Assembly: GCA_002049455.2 (NCBI GenBank)
Contig: KV918896.1
Location: forward strand, 1 to 64,000
DNA length: 64,000 nucleotides
From: Porphyra umbilicalis
Lineage: Eukaryota; Rhodophyta; Bangiophyceae; Bangiales; Bangiaceae
Reading direction: 5' to 3'
Both the position numbers and the translations under genes were made by a program. Positions 1-28,686 of the stretch are shown in pieces. The notes under the pieces are model-generated. The model ran no database searches and had not been told where the DNA came from. It saw nothing but the letters and a program-made list of their open reading frames with translations. The first letter of the stretch is position 1. Each line of letters begins with the position of its first letter.

Positions 1-281
1 GGCGCGGGTGATGAGCAACGCTTTGGTGACAGTCCTGTTAACTGTGTGCTCCGGACCGCGCGGCGCCACACGCTACGACGCCACCGCGTAGCTGTGGAAG
101 TCGCCATACGCGTCAACAGAGCGGCAGCAGAACGGCAACGCCGCGCAGTTGCGGTGGATCCTCCGAGCAGCCAGACGCCGCCAGTGTTAGCGACACTGGT
201 TGTGGCTCACCTCGTGAGCGGGGGCGCCAGCGGAGGCATTGATGCGACGTCCCTGGGTCGGGAGAACGGTGTTTGGTGTGA
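1..281. other. 5' flank of E(z)-like gene, no gene assigned
   Basis: GC-rich sequence at the window edge. A TGA closes the E(z) reading frame just before position 282, so any earlier exon of that gene would lie here or outside the window. A 93-codon open frame at 46-327 has no recognisable motif and I do not call it. Confidence 0.4.
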
Positions 282-3200
282 TTGTCGGGTCGGGCAGGGG
301 AGGCGGGAGTCTCAGGTGAGGTTTTAGGCGGCTACTCTCTCGATGGTGGTGCACTGCGGGTCGGCGATGTGAGGGGCATCAGCAACAAGACAATGTCGGC
401 AGCACGCTACAGGTTTGCATGTGGTGACGGGCGACTTGGGGCAGACGACATCTTGGGTCGCATATGCGAGGACCGGGCTAGGACCGGCAGGAGCGATGTC
501 GGCGGCATTGGGCGGCAGCCACCCTCAAAGCTGCGGCGTTTGTCATCGCACGGGCAGCGGGCGCGTGACCAAGGTGTCGAGCCAGGTACTGTCCGCCACG
601 CCGGTGAGACGTTCTCTAGGTGGGATACCGACGTCGGGGCTCGTTCCCTGTGGTCTCTCCCTCCACCTGGCTCAGTGCGAGTCACTTCGCTCTCAGCCGA
701 GGAGCAGCTGCCAACGCACACGTATTATGTCCCCACTCGCTTTTCTTGGCGGCGCGTTGAGGAGGACCCCGGGAAGCGGTTTGTGTCGGACTTGCGGGAC
801 ATGTGCGGCCCGTTTGCTGAGTCGGCGCGTGCCGCCTTAATGGACAGATGGGCCGGCCGGGTCGACAGCGATGCGAGTGACGCGTCCGATGATGAGGACT
901 GCGAGCAACGCGGGGTGCACTACAATCAGCTGCCCCAGCGGATGCGACGGCTTGCTGAGCGAGCTGGAGTGAGCGCGGTGACCGGGATGTTTGGACAGGG
1001 GATGGTGGTCCTGGGAGCTATTGCTACCTCACGAGGGTGCAGCACTGCTGCGGTGAGGCGCCTCGTGGCGCTCATCGAGCGTCGAGCTCGTGACCATGCG
1101 GCATTGCGGTCGAAGCGGGCCGCTTCTATCGCGCGTCGTACAGCCGTGGAGCGGCTAACCGGCGGCGCCAGTCTGGCCGTCGTACTCGGCAGTGGGGCGG
1201 TGCGTGTGCCGTCGTTGACGGCCGACGGGCGGTTGGTCGCTGCCGGACTTGGGCGCGTCGAGGCGCGGCCTGAGCGCTGGGAGGTTTCTAGGGTTGCTGC
1301 AGAGACTACCGCAGATGGGGTGGCCGCCGGGCTCCCTCGAGCGAGTCGGAGATGGGCGGTGCGGCAAGCGCTCTTGGTCGCGCGGGAGCTGTCGGTGGAA
1401 GACCGGCGAAGAGCAGACGCTCACGCAGTGCGTGCACTGCGCTCGACGAATTGGTTGCCTGTCGTCATTTCGGATGGTCGCCGCGGCTCCAGCGCGGGTG
1501 TTGCGACTGTCGGTGCTGCTGGTTGGGCGGCAGGTCGCCTTGGTGAGGACGATGGCGCTGGTGGCCATGAGATTGACACATCGGTGCTGGGGAGAGACAC
1601 GCTTTCCAGTTTGCTCTGACGTGTCTGCTTGCGGTACGCCTGCCGTCTGCACTCTACAAATCCCTCCGATCCTCTGTCGGCGCCCCCTCCCGCTATGCCT
1701 GTGCGGCCGCCGCCCGACCCATCCCGCCTCTCTCAGCGCCGTGGGAGTGACTACCACGGGAAGCAGAGAGCAACGGCGTCTGCTCCCCGAGCCATTGGTG
1801 GCGGTTTGGCCGCGGGCAGCGCCCGTGATGCGTTCTCGCGGCCACCGCAGGCCAGTGCGCGGCGTGGTGGGCCGGCGAGCTCGATTCACCATGCCATTGC
1901 CGGCGTGTCCGGTGAGTGCGGCGATTGCTGCCTTGCTTCCAAGTCTCATCGAGTAGGTGACGATGGGCACTTTGCAGCTGCCGTGGGGGCCTGGACGGCG
2001 ACCAGATTGCCCTCCTGCGCGCCGGCGCCGCCATTGTCGGCCAGGGCGACACGTGCGGGATTGCCAGATTTGTGCCTGGGCAGTCGTGTCGTGGTGGGGC
2101 TGAGTACATCCACGCTGTCGGCTTGGGTCAAGGCACCTCTTCTGCAGTCGCCGCGCCGTTGGAGGACCCGCGGCAGTCTGTCGAAAAAAGAAGTTCGACG
2201 TCGGGATCATTGGGTTTGTCGCAAGCTGCGTCGGCCCAGCGACACCGGCTTGAAGGGGCGACGGCATCGCCGGCTGAGGACGGGAGCAGTCAGGGCGGTG
2301 GCCCAGCTGTGGACTTTGTGCCGTGTTTCCATCAGGGCAAATGCACATCGGAGGTGTGTCGGTGTGCGCGAGCAGATATTCCCTGCGAAAAGTACTGCGG
2401 CTGCGCGCGCCTGCGGTGGATATCTGTCGATCCCGGTGTGCCACCGGCTGCCTCGACCAATGTCGCCGCCGCAACCGTGTCGCCTGACGGCGCAGGGGCA
2501 GCGCACGAGGGGGCGGGCCCGCCAAGTGTCAGTGACGGCTCCCACAAGGACAACGGCAGCAGCAGCTCGGCAACGCAGGACGACTCAGTGTCGGCGGACC
2601 AGGCGCGGCCACGTCCAAGCGACGGCGGAGGCACCGCGGACGAGGAGGACGCGGTGGCGGCGCACAAGGGGGTGGCGTCGCCAATCGACGTTGACGGCTC
2701 CGAGGAAGAGGAAGACGTGCTGGCGGCGCACAAGGGCGGGATGTCGCCAATCTATGTAGCCGACTCCGACGAAGAGGAAGACGCGGTGGCCGCGCACGAG
2801 GGGGCGACGTCGCCAATAGACGTCGACGCGTCTGGCGCAGAGGAGGAAACGGGGGCGGTGCACCAGGCGGCGCCGCGGCCAATCGACGTCGACGCTTGCG
2901 ACGAAGAGGAGGAATTGGCGGCGGCACACCAGTGGGCGCCGGCGCGAAGCGACGTCGGCGACACCGAGAAAGAGGGCGACAGCGACGGCTGCGCGACGCC
3001 TGGGTGGACTCCCGGTTCGCTCGCTTCCGTATCGGGATGGTCGCACCTGGAGAGCGCTCCGGCCCCCGGTTCGCGGCTTTGCTCGCGCCGCGTGTGGTGT
3101 GAATGCTCCGCGCCCGGGCGCTGCGCCACCGATGACTGTCCATGCTTCGCTTGCGACCGCGAGTGTGACCCTGATGCGTGTGGGTCCTGTGGGGCGCATT

Positions 3201-3650
3201 GGGACCCGGCGTCGGGTGTGGACGGAGAGCAGCCCTGCAGTGCCATTGGCGGGGAGAGCGATGCCACGGCGCCCCGTGTCGGTGTCTTGGCGGCTGCTGA
3301 CCCAGTCGCCGGCGGGGTCAGAGGTAGCAGGCGCTGCCGGAACGTGCAGATGCAAGTCGGCCTTCGAGTACGCCTCGTGCTGGGTCGGTCGGACGCGCAC
3401 GGCTTTGGTGTGTTTGCTGCGCAGCGGGCGGTCAAGGGGGATTTTGTCGGTGAGTATGTGGGGGAGATGGTACCGCACGATGATGCGCACACCAGAGGCC
3501 GCGTCTACGACGCACTTGGTGTCAATTACTTGTACACGCTGACGCGCTCTGTCGTCCTCGATGCGTGCCGTATTGGCAGTCGGATGCGGTACGTGAACTA
3601 CAGCAGGGTGAGGGCTAACTTGCAGCCTAAGCTGCTCAGCGTTTGTGGGT
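282..3650 (+). pseudogene. E(z)-like H3K27 methyltransferase, 5' part, interrupted
   Basis: E(z)/EZH proteins are the catalytic subunit of Polycomb repressive complex 2 and methylate histone H3 lysine 27 in the nucleus. The N-terminal frame (282-1616) has an acidic stretch like that of EZH proteins. A cysteine motif R-V-C-L-R-Y-A-C-R-L-H follows at about 1620. A SANT2-like segment (G-x-x-x-C-G-I-A-R-F-V-P-G-Q-S-C) lies at about 2000-2110. The CXC domain starts at about 2324 (C-E-K-Y-C-G-C) and resumes at about 3077-3210 (R-E-C-D-P-D-A-C-G-S-C-G). The SET domain begins at about 3350 (H-G-F-G-V-F-A-A; V-G-E-Y-V-G-E-M; G-R-V-Y-D) and is cut at 3650. Defects: in-frame TGA at 1617-1619, an apparent 1-nt slip near 1990-2003, and NYS in place of NHS at 3596. 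A possible 66-nt GT-AG intron (1912-1977) does not change frame. Homology is clear from the CXC and SET motifs; loss of function is inferred. The true start is unknown (an ATG lies at 393). Confidence 0.85.
2636..2970 (+). repeat. Acidic coding minisatellite inside the E(z) CXC domain
   Basis: Five imperfect units of about 22-24 codons, each with an acidic run (EEEED, DEEED), an A-A-H-x-G/A core and S/R-P-I-D-V-D. They lie between the two halves of the CXC cysteine domain, where other E(z) proteins have only a short spacer. Isoleucine-aspartate-valine cores next to acidic runs resemble SUMO-interacting motifs; that reading is inference. Confidence 0.7.
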
Positions 3651-4023
3651 TGTTGAGCATGGCTCAGCAATTCCATTTGTCTATACTTACCCGGTTGAGC
3701 ATTGGGACTCAGATTTGGGTATTTACCTATGCACTTGTTGTATGTTTTGTACTTGTGTGTACTTGATTTGTTGGTCTCGTAGTGGGCACTCTCTGCTGGG
3801 GTGAGCTCGGGGGGGGGGGCTTGTGTGGGGAGGTGCATGCCCCGTTCTGGGAGGTGCGCCGCGGCCCGTGCGCACTGAGAACTGAGGCACGTGGGTGTGC
3901 TCCGAGAGCGGGCTGCCCGACGACCTGTCCTGGGGCCGCCTGGGGTACATTAGGTGGCTGGACACGGCCCAGGACCTCTGCCATAGTAAAATAACGCACC
4001 CACTTGACCACACCGACTTCACA
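3651..4023 (+). repeat. 5' LTR of copia element
   Basis: 373 bp, TG...CA ended, aligns along its whole length with 9242-9615 and 50502-50873. Differences from the 3' LTR are in a G-run near 3810 and a few single bases. Confidence 0.97.
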
Positions 4024-4037
4024 GGTTATGGGCCCAG
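4024..4037 (+). promoter_or_regulatory. Primer-binding site, half-tRNA iMet type
   Basis: Directly after the 5' LTR the sequence GGTTATGGGCCCAG is the exact reverse complement of the anticodon stem-loop of eukaryotic initiator tRNA-Met (CTGGGCCCATAACC), not of a tRNA 3' end. Drosophila copia and yeast Ty5 prime from the 5' half of tRNA-iMet cut in the anticodon loop, so the same mode is inferred here. Confidence 0.85.
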
Positions 4038-4179
4038 TGTCGCTGGTGGTCATCGTCGTCTTCCGTGCGGTTGTTGGCGGGACGACCTTGGTTGGGTTGC
4101 CGTGTGTTCCAGCGTCGGGCAGGTGGGTATAGCCTCCCACGTCGTCAGTGCCGCGCCTGCTGGCGTGGTTGTCATCGTC

Positions 4180-7100
4180 ATGTCGGAGTACGGCCGCTAC
4201 GCTGGCCCTCGCTTCGCGCAGCTGGAAGACGACTACAAGGTCTGGGCTGTGTACTGCCGTGCACAGATGATCAAGGAGAAGGTTTGGGCTGCCGTTGTGA
4301 CGGACCGCCCCGCGTCTGGGAGCGGTGCCAAGAGCGACGTTGCAGCTGAGGCGTGGGACCTCATGAACGAGTCGGCCCTGGCGACTATCCAGATGTCGGT
4401 CAAGCCGGTTCATCTTTATTCGGTGACGGCGGTCAGTACGGCCAAGGAGGCGTGGGATGCGCTCAAGGACATCTTTGAGGCGCGGGACAACGCACGCCTG
4501 CTGCAGCTCATGCATGAGCTGAGCAACCTCAAGAAAGGCAGCGTCGAGAACATCATCAAGTACACGTCTCGCGCCAAGGGCATCCGTCAAGAGCTCTCCA
4601 TGCTGGGAAATCAGGTGGACGAGAACGCGCTTGTCCTGCAGATCCTGTCGGGCCTTCCGGCCGAGTATGACATGATCAAGACCGTTCTGGAGAACATGGA
4701 CGGGAAGCGCAACCTCGCTGACGTGAGCGCCAAGCTGCTCACTGTGGAGCAGCGGGGGAGCCATGGGCGGTCGTCCTCGGCGACCGGCGTCAAGTCAAAA
4801 GCGTTTGCGGCAACGGCTTCTAAGAAGCCGTGGGACAAGCGCGCGGTCGTGTGCTACTGCTGCGACAAGAAGGGGCACATGAAGCGCGACTGTATCAAGA
4901 AGAAGGCCGACGACGCCAAGGGCAACAAGAAGCCAAATGGCGGGCGTCGTGAGGGTGGCGGTGGAGGTGGTGCACCTCCCCGCGCCGCATTGGCCTACGC
5001 TGCGTCGGCAGGCCAGGCCGGGAAGCTCAACGCTTCCGGGAGCACCAGCGGGTCCTCGACCTGGGTGTTGGACTCGGGTGCGACCAACCATATGGCCGCC
5101 CAGGACGCGGGTTTCACCGTCAAGATGACGGGGAGCGGGGCCAAGGTCACTCTAGCTGACGGCCACAAGGTGCCCATCAAGGAGCACGGATACGCGTCCA
5201 TGGACGTGGGGAAGGGAATCACCACGGCTCGCATGGTCCTCGATGAGGCCATGCTTGTGCCGGATCTGACAGACAACCTTCTGTCGGTCCGAGCGCTCGA
5301 CCGCTGTGGCGGTGCCGTGGTGTTCGTTGGCGACGCCTGCTATATCCTCAGTGATGGGGAAGCGGTGCTCGCGAGCGGAGTTTTGAGCAACGCATCTGTC
5401 GTCGGCTCGGTCAACGAGTCGGAGAGCTACGTGCTCAAGGTGACTCCGGTCACGGCATCGGCCAGAGCCGCCTCCACGCACATGGACGGCGAGGCAGAGC
5501 TGTGGCACCGCCGGTTCAACCACTTGGGTTTCGAGAACCTCAAGCGTGTGGTTGGGATGGTCGATGGGATTCCATCGACGGTAGCCGACGCCAAGCGCGT
5601 TCCTGGTACGGTATGCGTGCCTTGTGTCGACGGAAAGATGGCGCGTTCTCCGCATCATCGCTCGACAACGACCACCACCAAGTGCGAGTTGGTTCACACG
5701 GACGTTGATGGGCCGTTGACGGCGTCGCTGGGCGGCTCTGTCTACTTCGTGACTCTGATGGAAGACTCCACTGGGTTCATCACGGCGACGCCCATCAAGT
5801 CCAAGGGCATGGTTCCGGATGTCCTCAATGCCCGCATCAAGCAGCTAGAGACCCTAACTGGGCTTAAGGTGAAGCGGGTTCGTCACGATGGCGCCAAGGA
5901 GTACGTGAGCCGCGACCTCCAAGCCTGGTATGAAGACAAAGGCATTACGTCTGAGAAGACGGCGCCGTACTCTTCGCAGCAGAACGGGAAGGCAGAGCGC
6001 GCCAACCGGTACATCATGGAGCGCGTCCGTGCGGCTCTTCTGGACGCCGGAGCGGAAGAGGAGCTGTGGGCTGAGGCTTTGTCATCCGTCATCCACGTGC
6101 TCAACCGATCCCCCAAGGCGGGTCAAGATGTGACCCCGCTGGAAGCCCTCACGGGGAGACGCCCCGACGTGAAGGGGTTTCGGGTCTGGGGGAGCCGGGC
6201 ATGGGCTCTGAAGCCCAAGCAGCAGCAGCGAAAGCTGGAACCCAGGACCGACGTCGGCCGTTTTGTCGGCTACACTGTTGGTGGCAAGGCCTACCGCATC
6301 ATAGAGGATGGCTCAAACAAGGTCTTTGAGCGCCGAGATGTGCTCATGGAGGAGACCTCAAGCAAAGCCATCAAGATGACCTCTGTCCCTGGCTCTGCTT
6401 CCACCCCTTTCCTGACCAGTCAGACGGATGGTGACAAGGAGGACGGCGCCATGGACATGCTGGAAGCGGAAGCCGCAAGCGGGGACGAGTATACCTCGCA
6501 GCAGTCGTCAGAGAGCGACGTTGAGCCGGACGAGGCTTCCGGACTCGACGCAGAAGACGGAGATGACAATGACGCCGGCGAGGACGCGGCGGATCATGAT
6601 GGACACGACGTGCTGTCTGGATCCACCACAGAGAGTGGTGACGACGGGGTGCAAGCACTCCGGCGGTCGAAGCGCAAGCCGGCACGCAAGGTTACCTGGT
6701 GGGAGCGTAACCCAAAGGCATACGCTGCAGAAGGACCCAAGGGCGGAGATCCGTCGGGATGGGACCTGACCAAGGCGCCAGCCAATGCGAAGGAGGCGCG
6801 TGCGCGATGGGACTGGCCGCGTTGGAAGGCGGCTGAGAAAGAAGAGTACCTCGCACACAAGAAGCTTGGTACCTGGTCCAATACCAGGAGCAGCAACAAG
6901 CGTAAGGCTGTCAAAACGCGGTACGTGTACGACATCAAGCACGATGCTGAGGGCAACATGACTCGGTACAAGGCGCGACTGGTGGCGCAGGGCTTCAACC
7001 AAGTGCCGGGGCGCGACTTTGATGAGACATGGGCACCAGTGCCGAGCTCGGCCACGACACGCGCGCTCTTCGCGGTGGCGGCGGCCAAGGACTGGGAAGT

Positions 7101-8364
7101 TCACCACGTGGATGTGAAGACGGCCTTCCTCAACGCAAAGATGGACAAGGAGATGTACATCAAGCTTCCGGTCGGAGCCGAGCCGGGGGAGGAAGGTGAT
7201 GTCCGCCGTCTGAACCTGGCTCTCTATGGGACCAAACAGGCGGGACGATTGTGGGGCATCAAGCTTAACAAAGAGCTCAATGCCATCGGAGCGGTCCGGT
7301 CCAAGGTGGACCCGTGCCTCTACACGTGGAGCCACCCTGTGCACGGGCTTGTCTACATCCTCGTCTACGTGGACGATCTCATTGTGGCTGGAAAAAGCCT
7401 CGAAGGGGTCCAGATGGTCAAGGCCTCGCTGTCGGCGTCTTTCGACGTGCGCGACATGGGTGAGGTCAAGGACTTCATTGGCATGAAGGTCATGCGAGAT
7501 CGGGCTGCCAAGGTGATCACCCTGAGCAATCCGGGGCATGTCAGTTCCCTGCTTGAGGCTTCCCAGATGGACAAGTCTGCGCCTAACAAGACGCCCATGG
7601 TGGCAGGTGCCAAGCTTTGCAAGACGGGGGAGAATCTACTGCCCGAGGGCAACCGGTACGCCGAGCTTGTTGGCTCGTTGCTGTACCTCTCCACGACGAC
7701 GAGGCCGGACATTGCCTTTGCCGTGGGCGTGCCCTCCCGCTACATGTCATGCCCCGAGGAGGACCACATGCGCGCGGCCAAGGGGGTGCTCCGATATCTT
7801 CGCGGGGCTACGCGACTAGGGGTCGTGTACGGCGACGACAAGCCTCTCCAAGGGTACGTTGACGCAGACTGGGCAGGCGATATTGACGCTCGTCGGTCGA
7901 CGACGGGCTTTGTCTTCACCCTCAATGGCGGGCCGATATCGTGGACGAGCAAGCGCCAGTCGACCGTGGCGACGTCAACGGCCGAGGCCGAGTACGTCGC
8001 CGCCGCTATGGCGACCAAGGAGGCGCTGTGGCTGCGCAAACTTCTGTCGGAGCTGGGCGTCGACGGGGACGCCGTGCCCATGGGGGAGGACAACCAGGCG
8101 TGCCTCGCTTTGGTCAACAATCCCGAAGCCACCGGGCGTACCAAGCACGTAGACGTTGCGTACCACATGGTGCGCGACTACGTCGCGCGTGGGGAGGTTG
8201 CCTTCTACTTTCTTCCCAGCGCCGACATGCCCGCAGATGGCATGACGAAGCCACTGCCGGCCCCGGCGTTCACCACATTCCGGGGCGTCATCGGCGTTGG
8301 CTCGGATCTGGGCACTTCGGGGAGTAGCGGCACGCGGGCCCTACGTCCTGCGCCGCAGTGCTGA
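4180..8364 (+). CDS. Copia gag-pol polyprotein
   Basis: 1,394-residue polyprotein from the ATG at 4180; the frame is open further upstream but earlier codons overlap LTR and leader. Gag (UBN2-type) occupies about residues 1-205. A CCHC zinc knuckle (C-Y-C-C-x4-H-x4-C) is near residue 222. The protease signature L-D-S-G-A-T is near 296. A GAG-pre-integrase finger has H-R-R-F-N-H and C-V-P-C. The integrase triad is D in H-T-D-V-D-G near 507, D in R-H-D-G-A near 568 and E in N-G-K-A-E-R near 604. Reverse transcriptase has V-D-V-K-T-A-F-L-N and Y-V-D-D near 1063. RNase H has V-D-A-D-W, S-T-A-E-A-E-Y and D-N-Q-A. No stop or frameshift interrupts it, so the element may be competent. Gag and pol are fused in one frame, as is common in this superfamily. 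Confidence 0.96.
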   Translation: MSEYGRYAGPRFAQLEDDYKVWAVYCRAQMIKEKVWAAVVTDRPASGSGAKSDVAAEAWDLMNESALATIQMSVKPVHLYSVTAVSTAKEAWDALKDIFEARDNARLLQLMHELSNLKKGSVENIIKYTSRAKGIRQELSMLGNQVDENALVLQILSGLPAEYDMIKTVLENMDGKRNLADVSAKLLTVEQRGSHGRSSSATGVKSKAFAATASKKPWDKRAVVCYCCDKKGHMKRDCIKKKADDAKGNKKPNGGRREGGGGGGAPPRAALAYAASAGQAGKLNASGSTSGSSTWVLDSGATNHMAAQDAGFTVKMTGSGAKVTLADGHKVPIKEHGYASMDVGKGITTARMVLDEAMLVPDLTDNLLSVRALDRCGGAVVFVGDACYILSDGEAVLASGVLSNASVVGSVNESESYVLKVTPVTASARAASTHMDGEAELWHRRFNHLGFENLKRVVGMVDGIPSTVADAKRVPGTVCVPCVDGKMARSPHHRSTTTTTKCELVHTDVDGPLTASLGGSVYFVTLMEDSTGFITATPIKSKGMVPDVLNARIKQLETLTGLKVKRVRHDGAKEYVSRDLQAWYEDKGITSEKTAPYSSQQNGKAERANRYIMERVRAALLDAGAEEELWAEALSSVIHVLNRSPKAGQDVTPLEALTGRRPDVKGFRVWGSRAWALKPKQQQRKLEPRTDVGRFVGYTVGGKAYRIIEDGSNKVFERRDVLMEETSSKAIKMTSVPGSASTPFLTSQTDGDKEDGAMDMLEAEAASGDEYTSQQSSESDVEPDEASGLDAEDGDDNDAGEDAADHDGHDVLSGSTTESGDDGVQALRRSKRKPARKVTWWERNPKAYAAEGPKGGDPSGWDLTKAPANAKEARARWDWPRWKAAEKEEYLAHKKLGTWSNTRSSNKRKAVKTRYVYDIKHDAEGNMTRYKARLVAQGFNQVPGRDFDETWAPVPSSATTRALFAVAAAKDWEVHHVDVKTAFLNAKMDKEMYIKLPVGAEPGEEGDVRRLNLALYGTKQAGRLWGIKLNKELNAIGAVRSKVDPCLYTWSHPVHGLVYILVYVDDLIVAGKSLEGVQMVKASLSASFDVRDMGEVKDFIGMKVMRDRAAKVITLSNPGHVSSLLEASQMDKSAPNKTPMVAGAKLCKTGENLLPEGNRYAELVGSLLYLSTTTRPDIAFAVGVPSRYMSCPEEDHMRAAKGVLRYLRGATRLGVVYGDDKPLQGYVDADWAGDIDARRSTTGFVFTLNGGPISWTSKRQSTVATSTAEAEYVAAAMATKEALWLRKLLSELGVDGDAVPMGEDNQACLALVNNPEATGRTKHVDVAYHMVRDYVARGEVAFYFLPSADMPADGMTKPLPAPAFTTFRGVIGVGSDLGTSGSSGTRALRPAPQC

Positions 8365-9233
8365 ACCCCCTCGGGGGGGCGGCGGTTGGCGGCGGAGTGG
8401 CGGTGTCGGCGGCCCGGAACGGCTTCGGGTCGATTGGGCGGTTTACGGCGAAGTCGGGGGCTGGGCTGTATCAGTACAGCCCTCCTCGGAATCAGGATCC
8501 GATTGTCGGCGGGCTGTACTGATACAGCCCGAGTCGGATTCGTGCCGAAATTCGTCGATCAAGTCGACGTTTCGCCGATCGAGTCGGGGGCGGCCGGTCG
8601 AATCGATGTCTACCGAACGTTTCGTCGGACGATCCGATCAACATTGGACGACCGCGTCAATTCGATTTTCGGCTGGGCGGTAGCCGTTACGGCTGTACTG
8701 ATACAGCTCCAGGCCCTTGCATCGCTACGAAGGCAGCGGCTTGCGTCGCCTGTACGCCGACTGGGTGGCCTGCGGAGGTCGGGCGGTCGGCTAAGGGCTT
8801 CTCCGATGCTGTCCGCGTCGACCGAGGCGGACTTGGCGGACATCGTTGGTTTTTGTTTTAAGTGGCGGGGGGAGGGCTGTACTGATACAGCCCAGCTTCA
8901 TGCGTCTCTACCAAGTCGGCGGTTTGCGTCGACTTTGCGGCGGTTGGGCGGCTTGCGGCGGCCTGGCGGTCGGCTGGCGGGTGCTCTGATGCTGTCCGAG
9001 TCGGCGGTTGTCGACTTGGCGGTGGGCGGTTTTTTGGCCCACATCGCGTTTTGCGGCCAAGTCGGGGAGGGGGGGTTCTGTATCAGTACAGCCCAAAACT
9101 GATATGGCTTCCCGAGGAGGGCTGTACTGCTACAGCCCGGGCCCGAGCAGCGGCGATCGGGAAGCCAAATCAAGCTGTCAGCCGGAAGCTGGGCTACCTT
9201 GCATCCGGACTCCGGAACCGTCACAATGTAATT
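8365..9233 (+). repeat. Copia 3' noncoding region with six palindromic repeats
   Basis: About 870 bp between the pol stop and the polypurine tract has no coding signature. It holds six near-identical palindromes of the type GGCTGTACTGATACAGCC, in both orientations of the centre, at about 8463, 8511, 8691, 8874, 9078 and 9118. They are absent from the LTRs and the coding part. Confidence 0.75.
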
Positions 9234-9241
9234 GGGGGGAG
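9234..9241 (+). promoter_or_regulatory. Polypurine tract of copia element
   Basis: GGGGGGAG lies immediately before the 3' LTR, the position and composition expected of the plus-strand primer of an LTR retrotransposon. Confidence 0.85.
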
Positions 9242-9615
9242 TGTTGAGCATGGCTCAGCAATTCCATTTGTCTATACTTACCCGGTTGAGCATTGGGACT
9301 TAGTTTTGGGTATTTACCTATGCACTTGTTGTATGTTTTGTACTTGTGTGTACTTGATTTGTTGGTCTCGTAGTGAGCACTCTCTGCTGGGGTGAGCTCG
9401 GGTGGGGGGGACTTGTGTGGGGAGGTGCATGCCCCGTTCTGGGAGGTGCGCCGCGGCCCGTGCGCACTGAGAACTGAGGCACGTGGGTGTGCTCCGAGAG
9501 CGGGCTGCCCGACGACCTGTCCTGGGGCCGCCTGGGGTACATTAGGTGGCTGGACACGGCCCAGGACCTCTGCCATAGTAAAATAACGCACCCACTTGAC
9601 CACAACGACTTCACA
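9242..9615 (+). repeat. 3' LTR of copia element
   Basis: 374 bp, begins TGTTGAGC, ends TTCACA, followed by TSD copy TGGGT at 9616-9620. Confidence 0.97.
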
Positions 9616-9715
9616 TGGGTATCTGAGGGTGGGGCTGTTTGCTTTGCGAGAGTTATCCCCTGGGGAGGAGCTTTACTTTGACTATGGGTATGAGGAGGAC
9701 GGGTGGCGTGAGTGA
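9616..9715 (+). pseudogene. E(z)-like gene, SET domain C-terminal end after copia insertion
   Basis: Immediately after the copia element the E(z) SET domain resumes. Removing the element and one TSD copy restores the same frame (Y-L-R-V-G-L-F-A-L-R-E-L, then S-P-G-E-E-L-Y-F-D-Y-G-Y). This is the conserved SET end (GEELxFDY) that closes the SAM and lysine channel. The frame ends at the TGA at 9713-9715, 10 residues after the FDYGY motif. In the present sequence this piece cannot be translated with the 5' part unless the 6-kb element is removed. Confidence 0.85.
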
Positions 9716-9889
9716 CTATACATTATCGCAGAGCGCTTGTGGCGGACCACCCATGTGACATGTGGAAGTGCTTGCTCCTTCACTCTCGTCGTGGTCCGCT
9801 ACTGACAGGGCCGAGGCGGGCCGCTTGGGGGGAAGCGAGTAGCAGCCGGTGTCCTCAGCAGAAGAGAAGCCCGCCCACGGCGTTGCCTC

Positions 9890-11195
9890 GTCCGTCGCAT
9901 CCGCGGCCATGGTGGCCGGCGGCGCGATGGGAAGTTGGTGGGCGCGGGTGGTGGCGAAGCGGTCGGCGGCACACGGGGCGGCCACGGCACACGGCGTCCC
10001 CGCGTCGGCGAGATGGAAAGTTGGTTAGCGCGGGTGGTGGGGCAGCGGTAGGCTGCACGCGAAGCGGCCCCGGCACACGGCGTCTCCAACTCGGCGCGAT
10101 GGGACGTTGGTGGGCGCGGGTGGTGGGGCAGCGGTTCGCGGCACGCGGAGCGCCCACGACACGCGGTGTCTCCGCGTCGGCGCGATGGGACGTTGGTGGG
10201 CGCGGGTGGTGGGGCAGCGGTGGGCGGCAAGCGGAGCGGCCATGACACACGGCGTCTTCGCGTCGGCGCGATGGGAAGTTGGTTGGCGCGAAAAGTGGGG
10301 CAGCGGTAGGCGGCGCGAGGAGCGGCCACGTCACACGGCGTCGCCGCGTCGGCGCGATGGGACGGTGGTGGGCGCGGGGGGTGGGGCAGCGGCCGGCGGC
10401 GATTGGAGCGGTCACGGCACACGGCGTCTCCGCGTCGGCGCGAAGGGACGTTGGTGGGCTCGGGTGGTGGGGCAGCGGTGGACGGCAAGCGGAGCGGCCA
10501 CGTCACACGGCGTCTCCGCGTCGGCGCGGTGGGACGTTGATGTGCGCGGGTGGTGGGGAAGCGGTCCGCGGCACGCCAGGCGGCCACGGCACACGGCGTC
10601 TTCGCGTCGGCGCGATGGGACGTTGGTGGGCGCGGGTGGTGGGGCAGCGGTGGGCGGCAAGCGGAGCGGCCATGACACACGGCGTCTTCGCGTCGGCGCG
10701 ATGGGAAGTTGGTTGGCGCGAAAAGTGGGGCAGCGGTAGGCGGCGCGAGGAGCGGCCACGTCACACGGCGTCGCCGCGTCGGCGCGATGGGACGGTGGTG
10801 GGCGCGGGGGGTGGGGCAGCGGTCGGCGGCGATTGGAGCGGTCACGGCACACGGCGTCTCCGCGTCGGCGCGAAGGGACGTTGGTTGGCGCGGGAAGTGG
10901 GGCAGCGGTCGGCGGCAAGCGGAGCGGTCACGGCACACAACGTCTCCGCGTCGGCGCGATGGGAAGTTGGTTGGCGCGGGAAGTGGGGCAGCGGTCGGCG
11001 GCGAGCGGAGCGGCCACGTCACACGGTGTCTCTGCGTCAGCGCGATGGGACGTTGGTGGGCGCGGGGGGTGGGGCAGCGGTGGGCGGCACGCGCAGCGGC
11101 CACGACACGCGGTGTCTCCGCGTCAGCGCGAAGGGACGTTGGTGGGCGCGGGGGGTGGGGCAGCGGTGGGCGGCACGCGGAGCGGCTACGACGTC
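9890..11195 (+). repeat. 86-bp tandem satellite with 430-bp higher-order unit
   Basis: About 15 copies of a GC-rich unit containing GTCGGCGCGATGGGACG. Anchor positions 10096, 10182, 10268, 10354, 10440, 10526, 10612 and 10698 are exactly 86 bp apart. A block of five units (about 10196-10440) recurs almost unchanged 430 bp downstream, so the array has higher-order structure. Long open frames on both strands are by-products of the repeat; 86 is not a multiple of three, so no frame is conserved between units. Confidence 0.95.
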
Positions 11196-11607
11196 GCGGG
11201 AGCCAACCGTGACACAGACGGGCCACCGCGCGTCACAGGATGGGTCGGCTGCCGCAGCATGTGGATGCATGGACAATTCGAATGGACGCGACGTGTGGCA
11301 GAGTCCGCAACTCATGGCATGTTCTATCATTCTATTGGAAAGAGCAAAACAAGTTGATTAAAAATACATACTTGTTCACTCGTTCTCATCCGGAGTCGTC
11401 CGAAGTTTGCCGTGGCGCCGGGCGCCTGCACGGAGTCTGACGTGACGCCCCCTCTGATGGGGTGCTCGGCCGTACGGTGTTGCAGGCACATCTCCAGCGC
11501 GTCTTCGCGACGACGCACGTCGGAGTACGGGGCCCGCTTGCCTCCGTTGCTTCTGTTTGTCACGCCCCCTTCATGTCCCGTGCTTGTCCCAATCCTGCCC
11601 CATCCTG
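11196..11607. other. Intergenic, no gene seen
   Basis: A short AT-richer stretch with TATA-like sequence near 11360 lies upstream of the zinc-finger gene and may hold its promoter. Nothing else can be supported. Confidence 0.35.
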
Positions 11608-12687
11608 ATGGCTTCCGCTCCTCCATCCCCCCCTCGTCCCGACCAACGTGGGTTTGTGGAGTGCCATCTTTGCGCTCTGATGCTGTCGGAGGTGGCGCCC
11701 TATCAGCAGCACGTGAGGGGCACCAGGCACCGTCGTCTACAAGCTGCAGCGAATTCCCCGCCCTCATCTTCTGACCGTGCAACGCAATGGATGTGCCCAC
11801 TGTGCGCTACCCACAACGACGCGGCGGCGAGTCTATTCATGCATGTCAATGGTTCTCGTCATCGCCGTGCTATCGCGCGTCTTCGTGAGGCTGGTCGGCT
11901 GTCGGAAACTGTCCCACTCGTCCCTCGGCTGCGCGCCGCCATGGCGGAGATCCGTCGCGCTGGGGACGACGACGCCGTTTTCGCGGAGCTGCTGCGAAAT
12001 GCTGAGGAGGACGCGGGCGTGCAGCTTGGCGCAGGCGGCCAAGAGCAGCTGGCCGACGAAGGAGACGTCGGTGGCGACCAGGAGGACGAGGACGTCGACG
12101 AGGACGGTGCCGTCGGCGGCGTTCAGGAGGACGAGGACGTCGACGAGGACGGTGCCGAGGAGGAGAACAACACGCACGGCGACGCCGTTGAGACCGGCGC
12201 CGTCAAATCGTCGCGCACTGGTGGCGCGCGTGGTCGTCTTGATGCCAGCTCGCCGTCAGCTCGTCCAAAAGCAATGGTCGCTAGCCGCAACACTCCGCGC
12301 GCCGACGGCCCTGTCCATCTCGGCAAGCGCTACCGTGATAGTGACGGCCGTGGGGCCGCGCCGCCCCCGAGGCACTCGACGGAAGCCCGCGAGACGGGCG
12401 GCTCGGGAAGCGGTGGGGTGGAATTTGGGTATGAACGTCGCATGGGAGGACGGAACGGACGCTACGCCGGCGGTGCCAGCGACGTCGGTCGCGCGCGTGG
12501 GTCGAGCTCTCCTGGTGGACCCACGACGCTCATCGTGCCGCCCGGCGCGCGCCCGTGGCTCGAGTGCCCGCGTTGTATGCCTCTGTGCGCGTCGGCGCCG
12601 GCCTTTTATGATCATCCCTGCCACCCCCCTTCCAGCAAGGGAAAAGGCCCTGCGCGCTCCGCCCGTGGCGGCGACCGCATGTCGTAA
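11608..12687 (+). CDS. C2H2 zinc-finger protein, U1/matrin-like fingers
   Basis: Uninterrupted frame of 359 residues from the ATG at 11608; the frame is open upstream, but this ATG begins just before the first finger. Two N-terminal fingers have the spacing C-x2-C-x12-H-x5-H (E-C-H-L-C...Q-Q-H-V-R-G-T-R-H and M-C-P-L-C...M-H-V-N-G-S-R-H). The long His-His spacing is typical of U1-like/matrin fingers, which often bind RNA or structured nucleic acid. An acidic repeat (E-D-E-D-V-D-E-D-G, twice) and a basic, serine-rich segment follow. A third C-x2-C...H-x3-H cluster sits near the C terminus. No catalytic domain is seen. Function unknown; a nucleic-acid-binding role is inferred. Codon third positions are G/C-rich. 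Confidence 0.7.
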   Translation: MASAPPSPPRPDQRGFVECHLCALMLSEVAPYQQHVRGTRHRRLQAAANSPPSSSDRATQWMCPLCATHNDAAASLFMHVNGSRHRRAIARLREAGRLSETVPLVPRLRAAMAEIRRAGDDDAVFAELLRNAEEDAGVQLGAGGQEQLADEGDVGGDQEDEDVDEDGAVGGVQEDEDVDEDGAEEENNTHGDAVETGAVKSSRTGGARGRLDASSPSARPKAMVASRNTPRADGPVHLGKRYRDSDGRGAAPPPRHSTEARETGGSGSGGVEFGYERRMGGRNGRYAGGASDVGRARGSSSPGGPTTLIVPPGARPWLECPRCMPLCASAPAFYDHPCHPPSSKGKGPARSARGGDRMS

Positions 12688-13426
12688 CTGCCGGTATGTT
12701 TGCACACTCGTTCCAATGAGCGTCAGCCCGGTGGCCGCTGTGTATGCTTGTGGTATGACCACGCTCTTTTTTTCATTGTCGCATGTGCGCTTGTTGCTCG
12801 TGTGCGTGTTGCTCATTGTTTTGTTCTTCGCGTAACCCCGTCACCTCAGTTCCTGGCGTGTAGCAGGCTCTTATAATTTATTCCACGCCGCTACAACAGA
12901 GACAAACTCGCTCACGAGTGCGACCGCATGGCACAACCAGCCGCGTAACCACGCGCGAGAATCCCCCCCGTTACTGGAATGTCGTTCGTCTCCGCCACCG
13001 CCACAGCGATAGCCGCCGACGCGTCCGCGGTGGCCACCGCTGCCCTATCTGCGACAAACGCCGCCGCCATCACAGGTGCCAACGCGCCCCCATTCCCCAT
13101 CGTGGTCACAACCGCAGCTGCCGGCTCACGCGGGACAGCAGCCGCTGTCCCCGCCGCCGCCGCCACCGCCGCCGAGTTGGTGCACTTTTCGGCGGCCAGA
13201 AGAGCCACCGCCTCCTCCATTCGTCGGCGGACACAAAGCCAGTCAGCAGGTATGCGGGGGGCGGTACAAATGTCACCCGCAGCACGTGGGCAACTGGCGG
13301 GCTGGAGACGTCGACGCGGCGTGTCGATCGCGACGCTGGCGACGCGCAGTACGCCGCTGCCTACTGCCTGCCCGCCGCGCCCTTTACCGCCAATGCGACG
13401 TGCGCCGCACCTGGACAGCGGCGGAA
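12688..13426. other. 3' flank of zinc-finger gene and alanine-rich low-complexity DNA
   Basis: After the zinc-finger gene stop comes an AT-richer tail (to about 12900). Then GC-rich sequence can be read as alanine- and proline-rich frames on both strands (for example 12979-13437 plus). No motif or start context supports a gene. Confidence 0.35.
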
Positions 13427-13520
13427 GTCAAACGTAAGACAAACATTGGGGGAGAGGGGGGGGGGTGGACGAGGTCAAACGTAAGACAAACATTGGGGGA
13501 GAGGGGGGGGGGTGGACGAG
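13427..13520 (+). repeat. 47-bp tandem duplication
   Basis: The 47-bp segment beginning GTCAAACGTAAGACAAACAT occurs twice head to tail (13427 and 13474), each ending in a G-run and GGTGGACGAG. Confidence 0.9.
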
Positions 13521-14774
13521 GGTGGGAGTGGACGGCGGGGGGGCCGTTCTTGGTCGGGGGAGGAGCCTGCCGTGGCGGCGGAGGCAGCAAGGGCGTCGGC
13601 GGAAAGGACGGCGCGGGCGGCACCGTGGCGCGGCGGCACCCAGAGCTCGCCCGACGGCGGCGCGACGTGGTGCGCCGCGACCGCGGAAACAAGCGCGTCC
13701 AGGTCGGTGCGCAGGGCGGCGGCGGTGGCTACTGGCGGCGACACCAAGGGCGGTGCGTGGGCACGGGCGGGAGGCGGGCCGGGGTCATCCCACTCGGCCC
13801 ACGCCTGCGGCGGCGGCGTCGGCTCGCAGCCGTCTTGGCAGGACGAGACGGTCCGGGCGGCGGCCGATCCGGACGAGGGTCGGAGCTGCCGCAGCGAGAG
13901 GGGGAGGAACACGGGGAGAGGGGGTGCAGGGGCGAGCCTCCCAAAGCAGGCGAAGACGGAACCTCCGCGGCCGCGGCCATGTGCGGCAAGCGACGCGGCG
14001 GCAGTGGGCGGTCGGTGCCGAAGAGCGGGGGGGGAGGGCGGGGGGGGGGGAGGGTAAGGTGCGGGACATGCCCCGCGCGGCGGCGCTGCGAGCCGCCGCG
14101 TCCATAGCCAGGGGGGCCGCCGCCGTGGGCGGGTTCGACCCTGCAGTCGGCGGCGGGCGCCGCGCCGTCCCTGTTGCCGCCGCCGCCAAAGCGGCCGCTA
14201 CCACAGCCGCCACCGCCGCTGCAGACTCGTTGGCGTCTGCCGCCGCCCGGCCACAGCCCGGGCGTTGGTTGCCGGCGAGCGCTGAGTGGAGGGGGGGAGG
14301 GGGGCTCCAGCGCCCGCGGCCAACGCCACCGCCGCCGCGTCCGGCGCGCGACCCCCGGCGGCGCCACTACAGGCGCCCGGAGAACGAACGGCACCGCCGC
14401 GGCCACAACCGCGGCGACAAAGCCGCCTCACAAGGCGCCGTCGCCACTGAAGAGGTAACGGTAAAGCACGAGCGCGGCAGATAACGACGCCACGGCGCCC
14501 GCGCCCGGACAGCTGACGTCACACGGCTGACATCATGATTGTCAGTGCGCAGGGACCAATCGGCTGAGGGAGAGTGTGTGGGAATTTGATAGTCGCACTT
14601 ACAGTTACAGATACAGTAGAACACCAAACATTTTCGTGTTCCAGAGGACAAACACAGCCATGTGCGCCTCGCACAGTCGCCCCGTGTTGCCATCACGTGC
14701 GGCGTGGCACGAACGCTGCAACCAAACAAGGGATAAAAATTTCCGGAAGCGCCGCATGAAATGTCCAAGACTCC
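13521..14774. other. GC-rich low-complexity region, no gene assigned
   Basis: Very high GC up to about 14480 with overlapping frames on both strands rich in Ala, Pro, Arg and Gly; none has a recognisable domain. From about 14490 the composition becomes normal again. Confidence 0.4.
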
Positions 14775-15089
14775 ATGGACCCAGGTGACACCCGAGAGAC
14801 TTTTTCCGTCTTGATGACGGTGCAAGCCGATAATGAACACGACGTCCTCGTGCTTCGGCCTCCTACCAGAATTGAAGTGCCGACAGGGACCACCATTCGG
14901 CGTGCAACAAGAACGAGCTGCGTCGAGGTGATGAGGACGGAGGTGCTGGCGCCGGGATTTGAAAAGCACCACAAGCTCAAGCTCGGATGTCGAAACAATG
15001 CCAAACTGCGAAAAGGGACGAAGGTTGCCACTGTATTTGCACTAAATATAATCGTGGACTGCATTCTTCTCGCCTTCTGCATCTGTTGA
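14775..15089 (+). CDS. Small ORF, hydrophobic C terminus, unknown
   Basis: 104 codons from an ATG. The body is mixed-composition and soluble-looking with no low-complexity bias, unlike the surrounding GC-rich frames. The last 20 residues are hydrophobic (V-A-T-V-F-A-L-N-I-I-V-D) and could be one membrane segment or a tail anchor. No family is recognised. A fragment of a mobile element is equally possible. The overlapping minus-strand frame looks weaker. Confidence 0.25.
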   Translation: MDPGDTRETFSVLMTVQADNEHDVLVLRPPTRIEVPTGTTIRRATRTSCVEVMRTEVLAPGFEKHHKLKLGCRNNAKLRKGTKVATVFALNIIVDCILLAFCIC

Positions 15090-16148
15090 CGGGAGAGCAA
15101 TCGACTGCCTCGGCACCACAATCGATCGGGCGAATCGGCACGGCAAATCAGGTCGAGCGGAAAACTATTTCAATGCTGCAATACAGAAGCAAGGACTCCC
15201 TTTACTCTGCGCCTCGCACCGCTGCGCGCTTTGATCGAAAGCGCCGGCAGCACGGTCGCTCCATGGCAGTATGCGCGTGCTTCGCCGTAGCTTGCAGGAG
15301 AATGTCCTCTGGACCAGGGCGTGCGGCCTAACAGTTTATGGCTGCTGACCGATCATGACGACTCCCAGCTGGTCTGGTGTCTGGAAAATCAGGTCTGGCC
15401 GAAGGTAGCTTCAGAAAGTCAACGGAACGCCAGGGAAAAGCGCGCCTTCGCGGCAGCGCGAGTGAAGAGTTCCGCTGGGTCCGCCACCTTTTCCCCTAAG
15501 TCGATCCATTCCATCGTCGATAATTGCTTTCCGAGTTGGAAGGACGGAGTTTGGGCTTTCCAAACAGCCGAGGGCGACAATGGGAAGAGATCTGGGGCGG
15601 TGTCTGTGTGTTTCACACAGCGATCGTCCGTCCGATCAATGCCGGCCCATTCGCAGCCAAAGTTTTCTTTAAACCGGGCCCCGCGGTGCCGCGAGATTGC
15701 CTTCCAGCGTAGAACGGGTGGCTGAGAAGCCGATCTTGCGCGTTTCCGCTGGCTGATTTGCCATGGAGGGTAATCGGCCAGGCCAACATCCCCCCGTGAC
15801 GTGACCGTCCTCGTCGCCCCACCACCGCTCCCTCTCTGATGATCGTCCTCGACGATGCCTCTTTTCCTCGCCCGCCGCAGCTCCGTGACCACCACGCTCC
15901 CACGCTGATGCTGTCCTCTTGACCAATTGAGAAGTCTCTCCGCCGCTCCTTTTGTGTTTTGTTTTGACCGGTGTGGCCCATGCAACAACTATGCCATCCT
16001 CCCGCCCGTCGCCTGCCATCCGGCCGTCGGTACTTGACCGACTCATTTGCGTCATTGTCATGTGTGTCTGTCCCTTTCATGATATCTGTGGGCGCCTGTT
16101 TGCAGTTTTTGCTTTTTTGACGCTTCTCATGCGCTTCCAACATCCCAG
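15090..16148. other. Intergenic, no gene assigned
   Basis: Normal-composition DNA without a convincing coding frame. The last 40 bases end in a pyrimidine-rich stretch and CCCAG, a plausible 3' splice site for the aminotransferase fragment that follows. Confidence 0.35.
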
Positions 16149-16675
16149 CCTTTCACGAACTGGCACGGCGCGAGGGCGCTCACCCTCATTGACAATTACC
16201 CGACCAGGGCCGTCGTCATCTGCTCGTGGACCAAACTGTGGTCGTGCCCGGGCCTCCTCCTCGGCATCATTGCCGCGTCGCCGGCGTGGACGACCACCCT
16301 CAGACGATGCAGACGCCGAGGAGTTGCAACTCGGCGGCGCAGGCCTTTGCGGCTGTGGTCGCGGCCGACGGCGACTACCTCCGCCGCACGTGGACGAGCC
16401 AGCCAGGGCGGCAGCGGGAGACGGAGGGGCGCCTGCGGAAGCTCGGGTGGGCGCCCAACGCCGAGTCGCCGCCGTGGGTGCCGTATGTGTATTTCCATAC
16501 CGGGGGGGAGGCCACCGCCCGCCGCGCGGCGGACGCGGCGCAGGCTGTGGGCGTGCCGGTCAGGTGGTGGAAGAGCTATGAGCAGCCCGCGTTTGTGAGG
16601 CTCGGCGTGCCCTGCCCGGCGAGCCAAGACGTGCTTTCTTCCGCCTGGGCGCAGGCGCTTGGCAAGGCGGGCTAG
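16149..16675 (+). pseudogene. PLP aminotransferase (HisC/CobD-like) C-terminal fragment
   Basis: Fold-type I aminotransferases such as histidinol-phosphate aminotransferase and threonine-phosphate decarboxylase bind PLP through a lysine in S-x-T-K...PGLRxG. Here frame 16149-16300 has S-W-T-K-L-W-S-C-P-G-L-L-L-G, with the candidate PLP lysine codon at 16233. The homologous continuation (M-Q-T-P-R-S-C-N-S-A-A-Q, then P-Y-V-Y-F, G-V-P-V-R and F-V-R-L-G-V) is in another frame, so a 1-nt shift lies near 16300-16308. The usual substrate arginine is probably in F-V-R-L-G. The N-terminal half is missing; the piece may be a terminal exon of a split gene or a relic. Conservation of spacing suggests a recent lesion or a sequencing error. 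Confidence 0.55.
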
Positions 16676-17299
16676 GCGAGGATCGGGTAGAACATTATTT
16701 TTTGGTTGGCTTCGAACTGCTGTCCACACCGCCGGCACCAGGTCAGCCGCCCGCTCGTCGGAACTGGGGGCCATGCGCCGGAACTGGGGTCCATGCGCGC
16801 ACAGGCGCCGGCGGCCGCGAGCTGCCCGCGCCCCCCCCACCCACGTCGCTGCGCGGCGGCGACACCTGCGTGGCTGCGGGTAGGGCAGCAGCGTCGCCCC
16901 CCCCCCCCCCCATGCCGGCGGCCGTACTCAGCGGGCGCCCTGCACCCGTTTGCCACAGCGCCAGCCAGATAAAAAGACAGTGGCGACTGTCGTCGAGTTT
17001 CTGGGTTTTTTTCGCGGTCGACCCCCCCCACGACCCCCACCCCCCCCGCCCCCGCGCGCGCGCCGTGTCCAACGCGCGCCCGAGCGCCCGCCACGCGGCG
17101 GGCGGCGGCAGGCCGTCCCCCTCCCCCCCCCCTCGCGCTGACACCACAGGCGCGCGGGCGGCGCGCCGCGCCGCCGCCTCCGTCGCCACCGCGTCGCGGC
17201 CACCCGCGCGGAGCACCGACGGCGCGAGCGCCATCGCTTCGGCGGGAGTGAAGGCGCCGACGAGCGCCGCTGCCGTGGCGGCTGAAGCGGTCGCGGCCG
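16676..17299. other. GC-rich region before minisatellite
   Basis: Contains C runs (16901-16912, 17025-17060) and low-complexity frames on both strands. No gene can be supported. Confidence 0.4.
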
Positions 17300-17940
17300 G
17301 TGCCCGACGCCAACGAGCGCCGCGGCGGTGGTTGCAGCAGCGGTCGCCGCGGGGGTGGTGCCGCCGCCGGCGTGCCGGGGGGGGGGGGGTGCAGTAGGAA
17401 GCGCCCCACCCCCGTCGCGGCCGCCAGTGCCAGACGCCAACGAGCGCCGCGGTTGTGGCGGCAGCAGCGGTCGCCGCGGGGGTGGTTCCGCCGCCGGCGT
17501 GCCGGGGGGGGGGGGGTGCAGTAGGAAGCGCCCCACCCCCGTCGCGGCCGCCGGTGCCAGACGCCAACGAGCGCCGCGGTGGTGGCGGCAGCAGCGGTCG
17601 CCGCGGGGGTGGTTCCGCCGCCGGCGTTCCGGGGGGGGGGGGGTGCAGTGGGGAGCGCCTCCCCCCCGTAGCGGCCGCCGGTGCCCGACGCCAACGAGCG
17701 CCGCGGCGGTGGCGGAAGCAGCGGTCGCCACGGGGGTGGTGTCGCCACCGGCGTGCCGGGCGGGGGGGGGGTGCAGTGGGGAGCGCCTCCCCCCCGTCGC
17801 AGCCGTCGGTGCCCGAAGCCCACGAGCGCCGCGGCGGTGGCGGCAGCAGCGGTCGCCGTGGCGGTGGTGCCGCCGCCGGCGTGCCGGATGGTGGGGGGGT
17901 GCGGTGGGAAGCGCCCCACCCCCGTCGCGGTAGCCGCTGC
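17300..17940 (+). repeat. 127-bp minisatellite, about five copies
   Basis: The anchor GACGCCAACGAGCGCCGCGG recurs at 17306, 17433, 17560, 17687 and, altered, 17815, i.e. every 127-128 bp. Each unit contains a G-run of about 10-12 bases followed by TGCAGT. Long frames on both strands here are repeat-derived. Confidence 0.95.
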
Positions 17941-18648
17941 GCGCCACGTCTCCCGCCACGGCTCCCGCCGCGGACGCCGCCACGGCACGAGCGTCGCCGT
18001 CATGGGAGACGGCCGGTGGCGAGGACCGCGGCTGTGCCGGCGACGGCAGCGACACGAAATCACGCGCGGTGGGGGCGAGGCCCAAAGCTACAACGGGGGA
18101 TGCCCCGCCTCCCGTCGGCGGCCTGCTAACTGCGACAGCAACGAGCGGCAGCGGAAACGGGGTGACGCTGGCCCCCCGCGCGGGCCCTGTAAGCGGCTAC
18201 ATCAGTGGCGCCGCCGCCTGCGGCGGCCGCTGCCATGGCCGACATCCCACCACCCGCACCATCTCCAGTCCGCACAACCCCAAACACCACGCACCGGCAG
18301 CCGCGCCCGTCGGCTCCAAAAGCGGCACGCTCCACACTAGAAAGGATCCAGTGGCGGGTGGCCGTCAGCCCATGGCGGCAAAGCGGCGACCGCGAGCCCA
18401 GATAACGTCGCTGGTGCTGGCCGATCGGCCAGCAACAAACGCAGACGGCCGAATCCGCACTGGCAAGAGTCGGAAGGCCCAACTAATCCCATCCATATAT
18501 CCTCCCGGGCCCATACAACAGAAATGAACACGCGAGCGACCAAGGGCATAAAAAATAGCAGGTTATGGGCCAACAAACGGCGGCTCGAACACATGGCCGG
18601 GGCACGCAAAATCTGCGGCCTCAAGAGGCCGCTGGTGCGGATGCGCCA
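17941..18648. other. GC-rich DNA, no gene assigned
   Basis: An open frame at 18069-18527 (plus) is of mixed composition but has no recognisable motif. I see no other support for a gene. Confidence 0.3.
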
Positions 18649-18860
18649 TCAGCCGCCCACCACGAAGCTCATATCGTCCAGCTCGGGGAACTTGTGAGCG
18701 AGCCCCATGGCCACGCCCGTGGCAAACGACGCACACCCTCGCACAATTATGGCACTCGTAATTCGGCCTCGCCAAAAACAAAGGATCACTCGGCGAAAGC
18801 AAATGACGGCACACAAAATCACGTGCGGGGCAGGTTCTCGCCAAATGTCCACCACGTCCT
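18649..18860 (-). CDS. Small membrane-protein-like C-terminal exon, unknown
   Basis: The minus-strand frame ends at the stop at 18649. Its last 60 or so residues are hydrophobic and glycine/alanine-rich (A-S-F-A-T-G-V-A-M-G-L-A-H) followed by the acidic tail P-E-L-D-D-M-S-F. The small-residue spacing recalls the second membrane helix of Mic10-type inner-membrane proteins, but the match is too weak to name. The 5' boundary is uncertain; an upstream exon may exist. Confidence 0.25.
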
Positions 18861-21577: not shown

Positions 21578-21604
21578 GCTCGCTCGGGTCCACAGCGGAC
21601 TCTC

Positions 21605-24883: not shown

Positions 24884-24905
24884 TTTGGCGCTCCGGGTGA
24901 GACTC
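24884..24905 (+). promoter_or_regulatory. Putative primer-binding site
   Basis: TGGCGCTCCGGGTGAG begins 2 bases after the LTR end; TGG matches the CCA end of a tRNA. The donor tRNA was not identified. Confidence 0.6.
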
Positions 24906-28455: not shown

Positions 28456-28686
28456 CGCCGTGGGTGGGCGATGTTCACCTATCTCGCCGGGGGCCTTCCT
28501 GTTGTTGGTTTCGGATGCCGTTGGCCGGGTCGGGTGCGTGACGGCATGGCCGTCCCTTCTGGGCTAGGGGGATCTGGGAGGCCACCCCGACTTCGGCGGT
28601 TCTCCTGTTCTCCTGTCTTGCGCGTCGATGCGCTGTCGACGGTCTCCGTCGTGCGGCGAGGACGCCGCAGTCTCAGATGGGGGAGA

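Follow-up and report, generated by a model that had tools for sequence, protein, structure and literature searches.

A Copia retrotransposon inside an E(z)-like gene copy of a probable giant DNA transposon in Porphyra umbilicalis

When a retrotransposon lies inside a Polycomb gene, the question arises whether the organism has lost an enzyme of its own or whether the gene belonged to something else. The window, a stretch of 64,000 nucleotides of Porphyra umbilicalis that forms the start of contig C136 (KV918896.1), poses this question: an earlier note described here a Copia element inserted in the SET domain of an E(z)-like gene. The insertion itself is borne out by the LTRs, the target-site duplication (TSD), the domain order and the interrupted SET frame (Table 1). 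The TSD TGGGT lies at 3646-3650 and 9616-9620, and the SET frame runs to 3650 and continues in the same frame from 9621, one TSD copy being counted. The LTRs are near-identical, with 5 mismatches and a one-base length difference; they start with TG, end with CA and are flanked by the TSD. In the translated ORF, Pfam places gag_2 at residues 26-194, rve at 517-599 and RVT_2 at 898-1141, the integrase core match (rve) falling short of its cut-off (28.2 against 32.6 bits). The gag is copia-type and the integrase lies upstream of the reverse transcriptase. LTRs, 5-bp TSD, gag and integrase before reverse transcriptase are all common to Ty1/copia elements, from which the insert shows no notable difference. 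The putative primer-binding site may resemble the anticodon arm of initiator-Met tRNA.

An assembly join at the two junctions, which the earlier note had named as a possible refutation, is ruled out by an uninterrupted relative. Contig C20 carries a natural empty site, in which 703 of 721 bases are identical to the SET stretch of the window with 0 gaps and TGGGT is present once. The window and C20 differ by 2.5% over this stretch, and the two LTRs of the window Copia differ by approximately 1.3%; if rates are equal, the lower LTR divergence suggests that Copia arrived after the two copies parted. The family is young, since at least 40 copies of the LTR occur in the genome at 98% identity or more (40 scored out of 182 candidates).

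Table 1. Positions of features in the window
Feature	Position	Strand	Basis or remark
Giant DNA transposon (probable), right-hand part	1..24393	+	right TIR and TA; gene set as in the C20 and C192 elements
E(z)-like fragment 1, frame 1	4..300	+	tblastn with the 1292-aa ORF of C192, 77% identical
E(z)-like fragment 2, frame 3, in-frame stop at 1617-1619	297..1984	+	tblastn, 63% identical over 627 columns including the stop
E(z)-like fragment 3, frame 2: SANT-like region, CXC, first part of SET	1985..3650	+	tblastn, Pfam
TSD TGGGT, left copy	3646..3650	none	
Ty1/copia retrotransposon	3651..9615	+	LTRs, TSD, domain order
5' LTR	3651..4023	+	373 bp
Putative primer-binding site GGTTATGGGCCCAGTG	4024..4039	+	
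gag-pol ORF, 1394 aa	4180..8364	+	no interruption
3' LTR	9242..9615	+	374 bp
TSD TGGGT, right copy	9616..9620	none	
E(z)-like C-terminal SET end and stop codon	9616..9715	+	tblastn (9617-9712), 88% identical to C192
Zinc-finger (C2H2-like) partner gene	11557..12684	+	97% identical copy on C20; family alignment A1
DDE_3 transposase	20552..21577	-	Pfam DDE_3 40.2 bits, cut-off 28.6
Right TIR	24370..24391	-	pattern search of the genome
TA target-site dinucleotide adjoining the TIR	24392..24393	none	

The interrupted gene encodes a CXC domain directly before the SET domain, both above the Pfam cut-off (preSET_CXC 24.4 bits, SET 28.8 bits). Compared with the 1292-aa ORF of the C192 element, it runs through three frames before the insertion and bears lesions besides Copia: two frame changes, one stop codon and a His-to-Tyr change in the conserved catalytic motif, which reads Asn-Tyr here and Asn-His in 21 of 22 other copies read. 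The C20 copy has the Asn-His, but the Tyr of its final FDY is gone. The claim that no functional SET domain could form unless the element were spliced out thus stands for the loss of the domain but not for the rescue, because with these lesions the removal of Copia would not restore a working protein. The same lesions undercut the view that the insertion was what killed the gene.

The genome (83.8 Mb) has twelve phycobilisome-linker matches, four of them together on the plastid-like contig C665 and eight elsewhere, which points to a red alga. Whether the gene was the organism's own can be judged from its relatives in this genome, searched with the profiles PF00856 (SET, 85 matches) and PF18264 (E(z)-type CXC, 76 matches). 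Merging gave 88 loci, 71 of them with both domains, 5 with CXC only and 12 with SET only, after removal of two matches: the best SET match, on C352, was set aside as SET1-like for its C-terminal Cys-rich post-SET motif, which we take as the mark of that group, and C273:53486 was set aside as not E(z)-like in appearance. Nearly all CXC loci (74 of 76) have one or more of four partners within 25 kb, namely a DDE_3 transposase, an orphan gene here called gene C, a zinc-finger gene and a gene with the VEFS box of Su(z)12; the remaining two are C278, which has a terminal inverted repeat (TIR), and C76. The SET-only loci follow suit in 10 of 12 cases, the exceptions being C506 and C114. Altogether 84 of the 88 loci have such a neighbour against approximately 16% expected by density, and at the others a neighbour may be hidden by a contig end. 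Some locus pairs are 98-99.8% identical over 10 kb, and very similar loci could in part be allelic contigs. The best solved relative of the full E(z) ORF of locus L010 is EZH2 (1.7e-31, PDB sequence search). The CXC domains of two full E(z) ORFs score just below the Pfam cut-off, Ezh2_MCSS in a full ORF reaches 16.4 bits (cut-off 27), and the MCSS and SANT regions align weakly with EZH2.

A search for a second E(z) in the same genome, which the earlier note had proposed, found a separate gene on C76, with CXC and a SET domain bearing RFANH and FDYGF in a 923-aa frame (1051 bases read). It looks like the host E(z), and a C478 ORF that combines a zinc finger with VEFS looks like the host Su(z)12; both are separate from the element copies. 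With 76 CXC loci, 74 of them beside transposon partners, and this separate E(z), there is no support for taking the window gene as the organism's Polycomb gene: it is most probably a broken passenger copy within a giant DNA transposon.

The ends of this transposon were sought by pattern. In the window the left end lies beyond the contig start, and the inverted repeats of positions 1-3000 show no element end; at the right, the DNA beyond the transposase aligns with C20 as far as 24393. When up to 3 mismatches are allowed, the 24-base end including TA occurs at 120 genome sites (63 forward, 57 reverse), and the reversed pattern, used as a control, at 0 sites. Pairing drew on 100 of the 120 sites, those listed, and the pattern lists no ends for subfamilies C50, C21 and C5. 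Among the sites listed, 30 correctly oriented pairs lie within 60 kb, against 2 in +/- order and 2 on the same strand. The TA is present at all but one of these 100 sites with mismatches allowed; as the search words included TA, the evidence lies only in its retention under mismatches. At each of nine readable ends TA adjoins TGGCACTTCC and the flanks vary; the DNA beside the TA differs at the C20, C192 and window sites.

Large pairs among the sites listed number 23 and span 18.7-47.7 kb (median 33.5 kb). They enclose a match to E(z) in 19 cases, the transposase in 20, gene C in 20, the zinc-finger gene in 14 and VEFS in 9, and 18 of the 23 hold E(z), transposase and gene C together with a zinc-finger or VEFS gene. 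The four without an E(z) match are on C33, C306, C43 and C13, the C13 pair matching none of the element genes. Gene order varies among the subfamilies. Seven short pairs of 3.2-4.8 kb (C12, C22, C33, C3, C44, C46 and C56), also among the sites listed, lack the five element genes and are likely non-autonomous relatives of the giant elements. At C192:14045-14728 two giant elements lie tail to head, approximately 0.6 kb apart.

The transposase has 117 genome matches. SET matches lie within 25 kb of it in 61 of 85 cases, against approximately 7% expected by density. The linkage is concentrated in the better-ranked matches: 59 of ranks 1-87 have a SET match within 25 kb, against 1 of 30 in ranks 88-117, a boundary drawn by eye, and that single case is the second piece of the C61 transposase. 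Two transposases scanned with Pfam gave DDE_3 (58.8 and 40.2 bits, cut-off 28.6) and HTH matches only, with nothing of the Harbinger or MuDR type. In Tc1/mariner (IS630) transposases the third catalytic residue stands 34 residues, or a family-specific number, past the second Asp; a motif count gives 33 residues from Asp to Glu in three copies. The DDE_3-type transposase and the TA-flanked TIR of the giant family both agree with that superfamily. PDB matches by sequence are weak (Sleeping Beauty, E 0.083; SETMAR weak), and an AlphaFold model of the window transposase made without an alignment has a mean pLDDT of 34.8.

Gene C has 94 genome matches and no Pfam match. Of these matches, some of which are pieces of one gene, 31 lie within 6 kb of listed TIRs, at 2.1-3.3 kb, and all 31 read inward. 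The zinc-finger gene has 85 matches, of which 62 were counted once the second pieces of a gene (23) had been dropped; its Pfam C2H2 matches are below the cut-off. The VEFS box, above the Pfam cut-off, has 26 matches; for 24 of them an E(z) locus is no more than 22.1 kb away, and the other two (C478 and C6) are on contigs without an E(z) or transposase match. The VEFS ORFs of the elements, at 251-303 aa, are short compared with the host-like ORF of C478, and a sequence search of the PDB with the VEFS protein gave no SUZ12 match. Among the 19 large E(z)-holding pairs at the sites listed, the zinc-finger gene occurs without VEFS in 10 and VEFS without the zinc-finger gene in 8, and 1 pair has both; the window element has the zinc-finger gene and no VEFS match. 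The near exclusion suggests that the two genes seem to occupy one slot, filled by either. The few element ORFs scanned with Pfam included no WD40 (EED/Esc) match.

Selection on the element E(z) was estimated over the last 170 codons, the SET end; 16 pairs were tried, and five gave no value. In diverged pairs dN/dS is low (L010/L016 0.10, L013/L026 0.14, L014/L021 0.18); L021/L022 gives 0.28, and the window copy gives 0.15 with L013 and 0.18 with L026. Four pairs of near-identical copies have values of 0.36-0.55, and a fifth has 0. Across the family the protein has diverged widely, being approximately 58% identical between C192 and L010. Low ratios in diverged pairs together with higher ones in recent pairs argue that constraint has acted on the SET end over long times and that decay sets in once a copy has inserted; in the window copy the constraint of its past still shows.

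Taken together, the ends, gene content, linkage, differing flanks, SET constraint and empty site lead us to read the locus as a Copia nested in a decaying copy of a giant mobile DNA transposon with TIRs and a TA target, a reading to which we assign a probability of about 0.88 from the sequence data. That Copia knocked out the host's Polycomb E(z) in this strain accords with the E(z)-like SET and CXC domains, the exact TSD and the in-frame continuation, but the chance is very slight, given that the copy sits in a TIR-ended unit with a transposase, is one of 76 CXC loci, and carries the additional frame, stop and His-to-Tyr lesions, and that a separate host-like gene exists. Equally slight is the chance that the units derive from a large DNA virus that had integrated. 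Their size and several-gene content would fit, yet the recognised families are transposase, E(z), VEFS and zinc-finger genes, and a pattern-based scan of viral contigs, suited to close relatives only, found none for either the transposase or E(z).

Only marginally better placed, and still most improbable, is a segmental duplication of a silent gene block into which TIR and transposase were inserted later. Identities of 98-99.8% over 10 kb are what segmental or allelic copies would show; against this, the TIR pairs (sites listed) are outermost and rightly oriented with gene C at a fixed distance, the flanks beside the TA differ between the C20, C192 and window sites, and the short gene-free pairs exist. 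A less remote alternative, though an unlikely one, takes the mobile unit as given and holds that E(z) and VEFS were picked up from the host and ride along as idle cargo, without use. Transposons often carry host fragments; the variable gene order, the many broken copies and the ratios of 0.36-0.55 in the four recent pairs would agree with this. It is opposed by the same gene set in 18 of 23 large pairs (sites listed) across deep divergence, by SET-end ratios of 0.10-0.18 in diverged pairs and by the Asn-His retained in nearly all copies read.

The units of the family span 18.7-47.7 kb between paired ends (sites listed), have a TIR of approximately 22 bp adjoining TA, and carry an E(z)-like methyltransferase, a transposase of the DDE_3 (Tc1/mariner) type, a zinc-finger or VEFS gene and gene C, the latter reading inward from 2-3 kb inside one end. 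On the reading of a mobile unit with working cargo, the transposase would cut and paste the unit at TA. The element E(z) with the VEFS or zinc-finger protein may form a PRC2-like enzyme whose target would be K27 of histone H3 in the chromatin of element or host, and this could favour the element by damping or retargeting silencing, the candidate targets being the element itself (self-restraint), host defence or rivals. In the window copy gene function would have been lost through point lesions and Copia. That Tc1/mariner-type giant transposons own a two-subunit Polycomb enzyme, in which E(z) is joined by Su(z)12 or a zinc-finger substitute, and write H3K27 methylation in their own favour is a tentative proposal, to which we give slightly less than even odds. 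If true, for each E(z) gene of the host there are dozens on the elements.

DNA transposons with a chromatin gene are already known, as two cases in the consulted passages of PMC12730594 show. In Phytophthora, HarbingerS and MuDR transposons include SET genes (Kojima and Jurka 2014, cited there), where, as here, the SET gene stands beside the transposase; the present family differs from these, as judged by the Pfam scan, in its DDE_3 match and TA ends, and also in the VEFS gene in part of the family, in units of 18.7-47.7 kb (sites listed) and perhaps in its SET gene, which is of the E(z)/CXC kind. The same passages describe 11 lineages of fungal DNA transposons carrying TET/JBP enzymes, for which their author supposes an escape from silencing; these too are epigenetic enzymes on DNA transposons, but they act on DNA cytosine marks, whereas the genes here are of histone methylation. 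The element E(z) shares with that of PRC2 the CXC and SET domains and EZH2 as best solved match, and the partner gene shares the VEFS box of Su(z)12, the two being encoded together in part of the family; unlike PRC2 genes, they are element-borne, in many copies and with a short VEFS protein. SETMAR, a host gene in which a SET domain is fused to a dead mariner, likewise brings SET and mariner transposase together, whereas here the SET gene is separate and within a mobile unit. Searches of open-licence PMC articles brought up none whose title or abstract describes giant TA-target transposons with two PRC2-type genes, and PMC8788455, a review of PRC2 in red algae, does not mention such E(z) copies in the passages seen. 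In its consulted part, PMC8566409 presents H3K27 methylation by PRC2 as thought to originate in transposon silencing; a PRC2-carrying transposon would invert these roles, the silenced party owning the silencer. The giant elements would allow a direct test of self- or host regulation by mobile elements through Polycomb marks, and may be a source of new E(z) and Su(z)12 genes; Polycomb gene counts in such genomes may be transposon counts.

Several further observations concern the elements and their surroundings. Tandem arrays lie between the E(z) and zinc-finger genes of the window (9920-11190, 86 bp x 14.8) and beside the transposase (21611-23088, 77 bp x 19.2). Two neighbouring ORFs at 18652-19534 (minus strand) have coding-like codon use and are partly alike to DNA of the C192 element; Pfam gave no usable match for them, and they may represent one more gene of the element. 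The window has no match in Rfam or tRNA scans. A second LTR element (24411-29159) begins 17 bases past the end of the giant element, with LTRs at 24411-24883 and 28687-29159 differing by 3 mismatches, the TSD ATATA, 335-bp tandem repeats inside (26415-28470) and many genome copies. At locus L014 (C174:121947-131946) the E(z) copy loses similarity to its near twin L012 at approximately 4322, at a copia-like ORF, which indicates that nested LTR insertions recur in giant elements. Loci L027 and L028 hold a 455-aa ORF beside E(z) (7165-8529, minus strand) whose start we take to resemble a putative F-box protein. Finally, the residue after VYDA in the E(z) copies read is Met, Arg, Phe, Leu, Ile, Val, Gln, Ala or Lys, in the column that aligns with the Tyr of EZH2 DKYM (Tyr641), the setter of methylation state.
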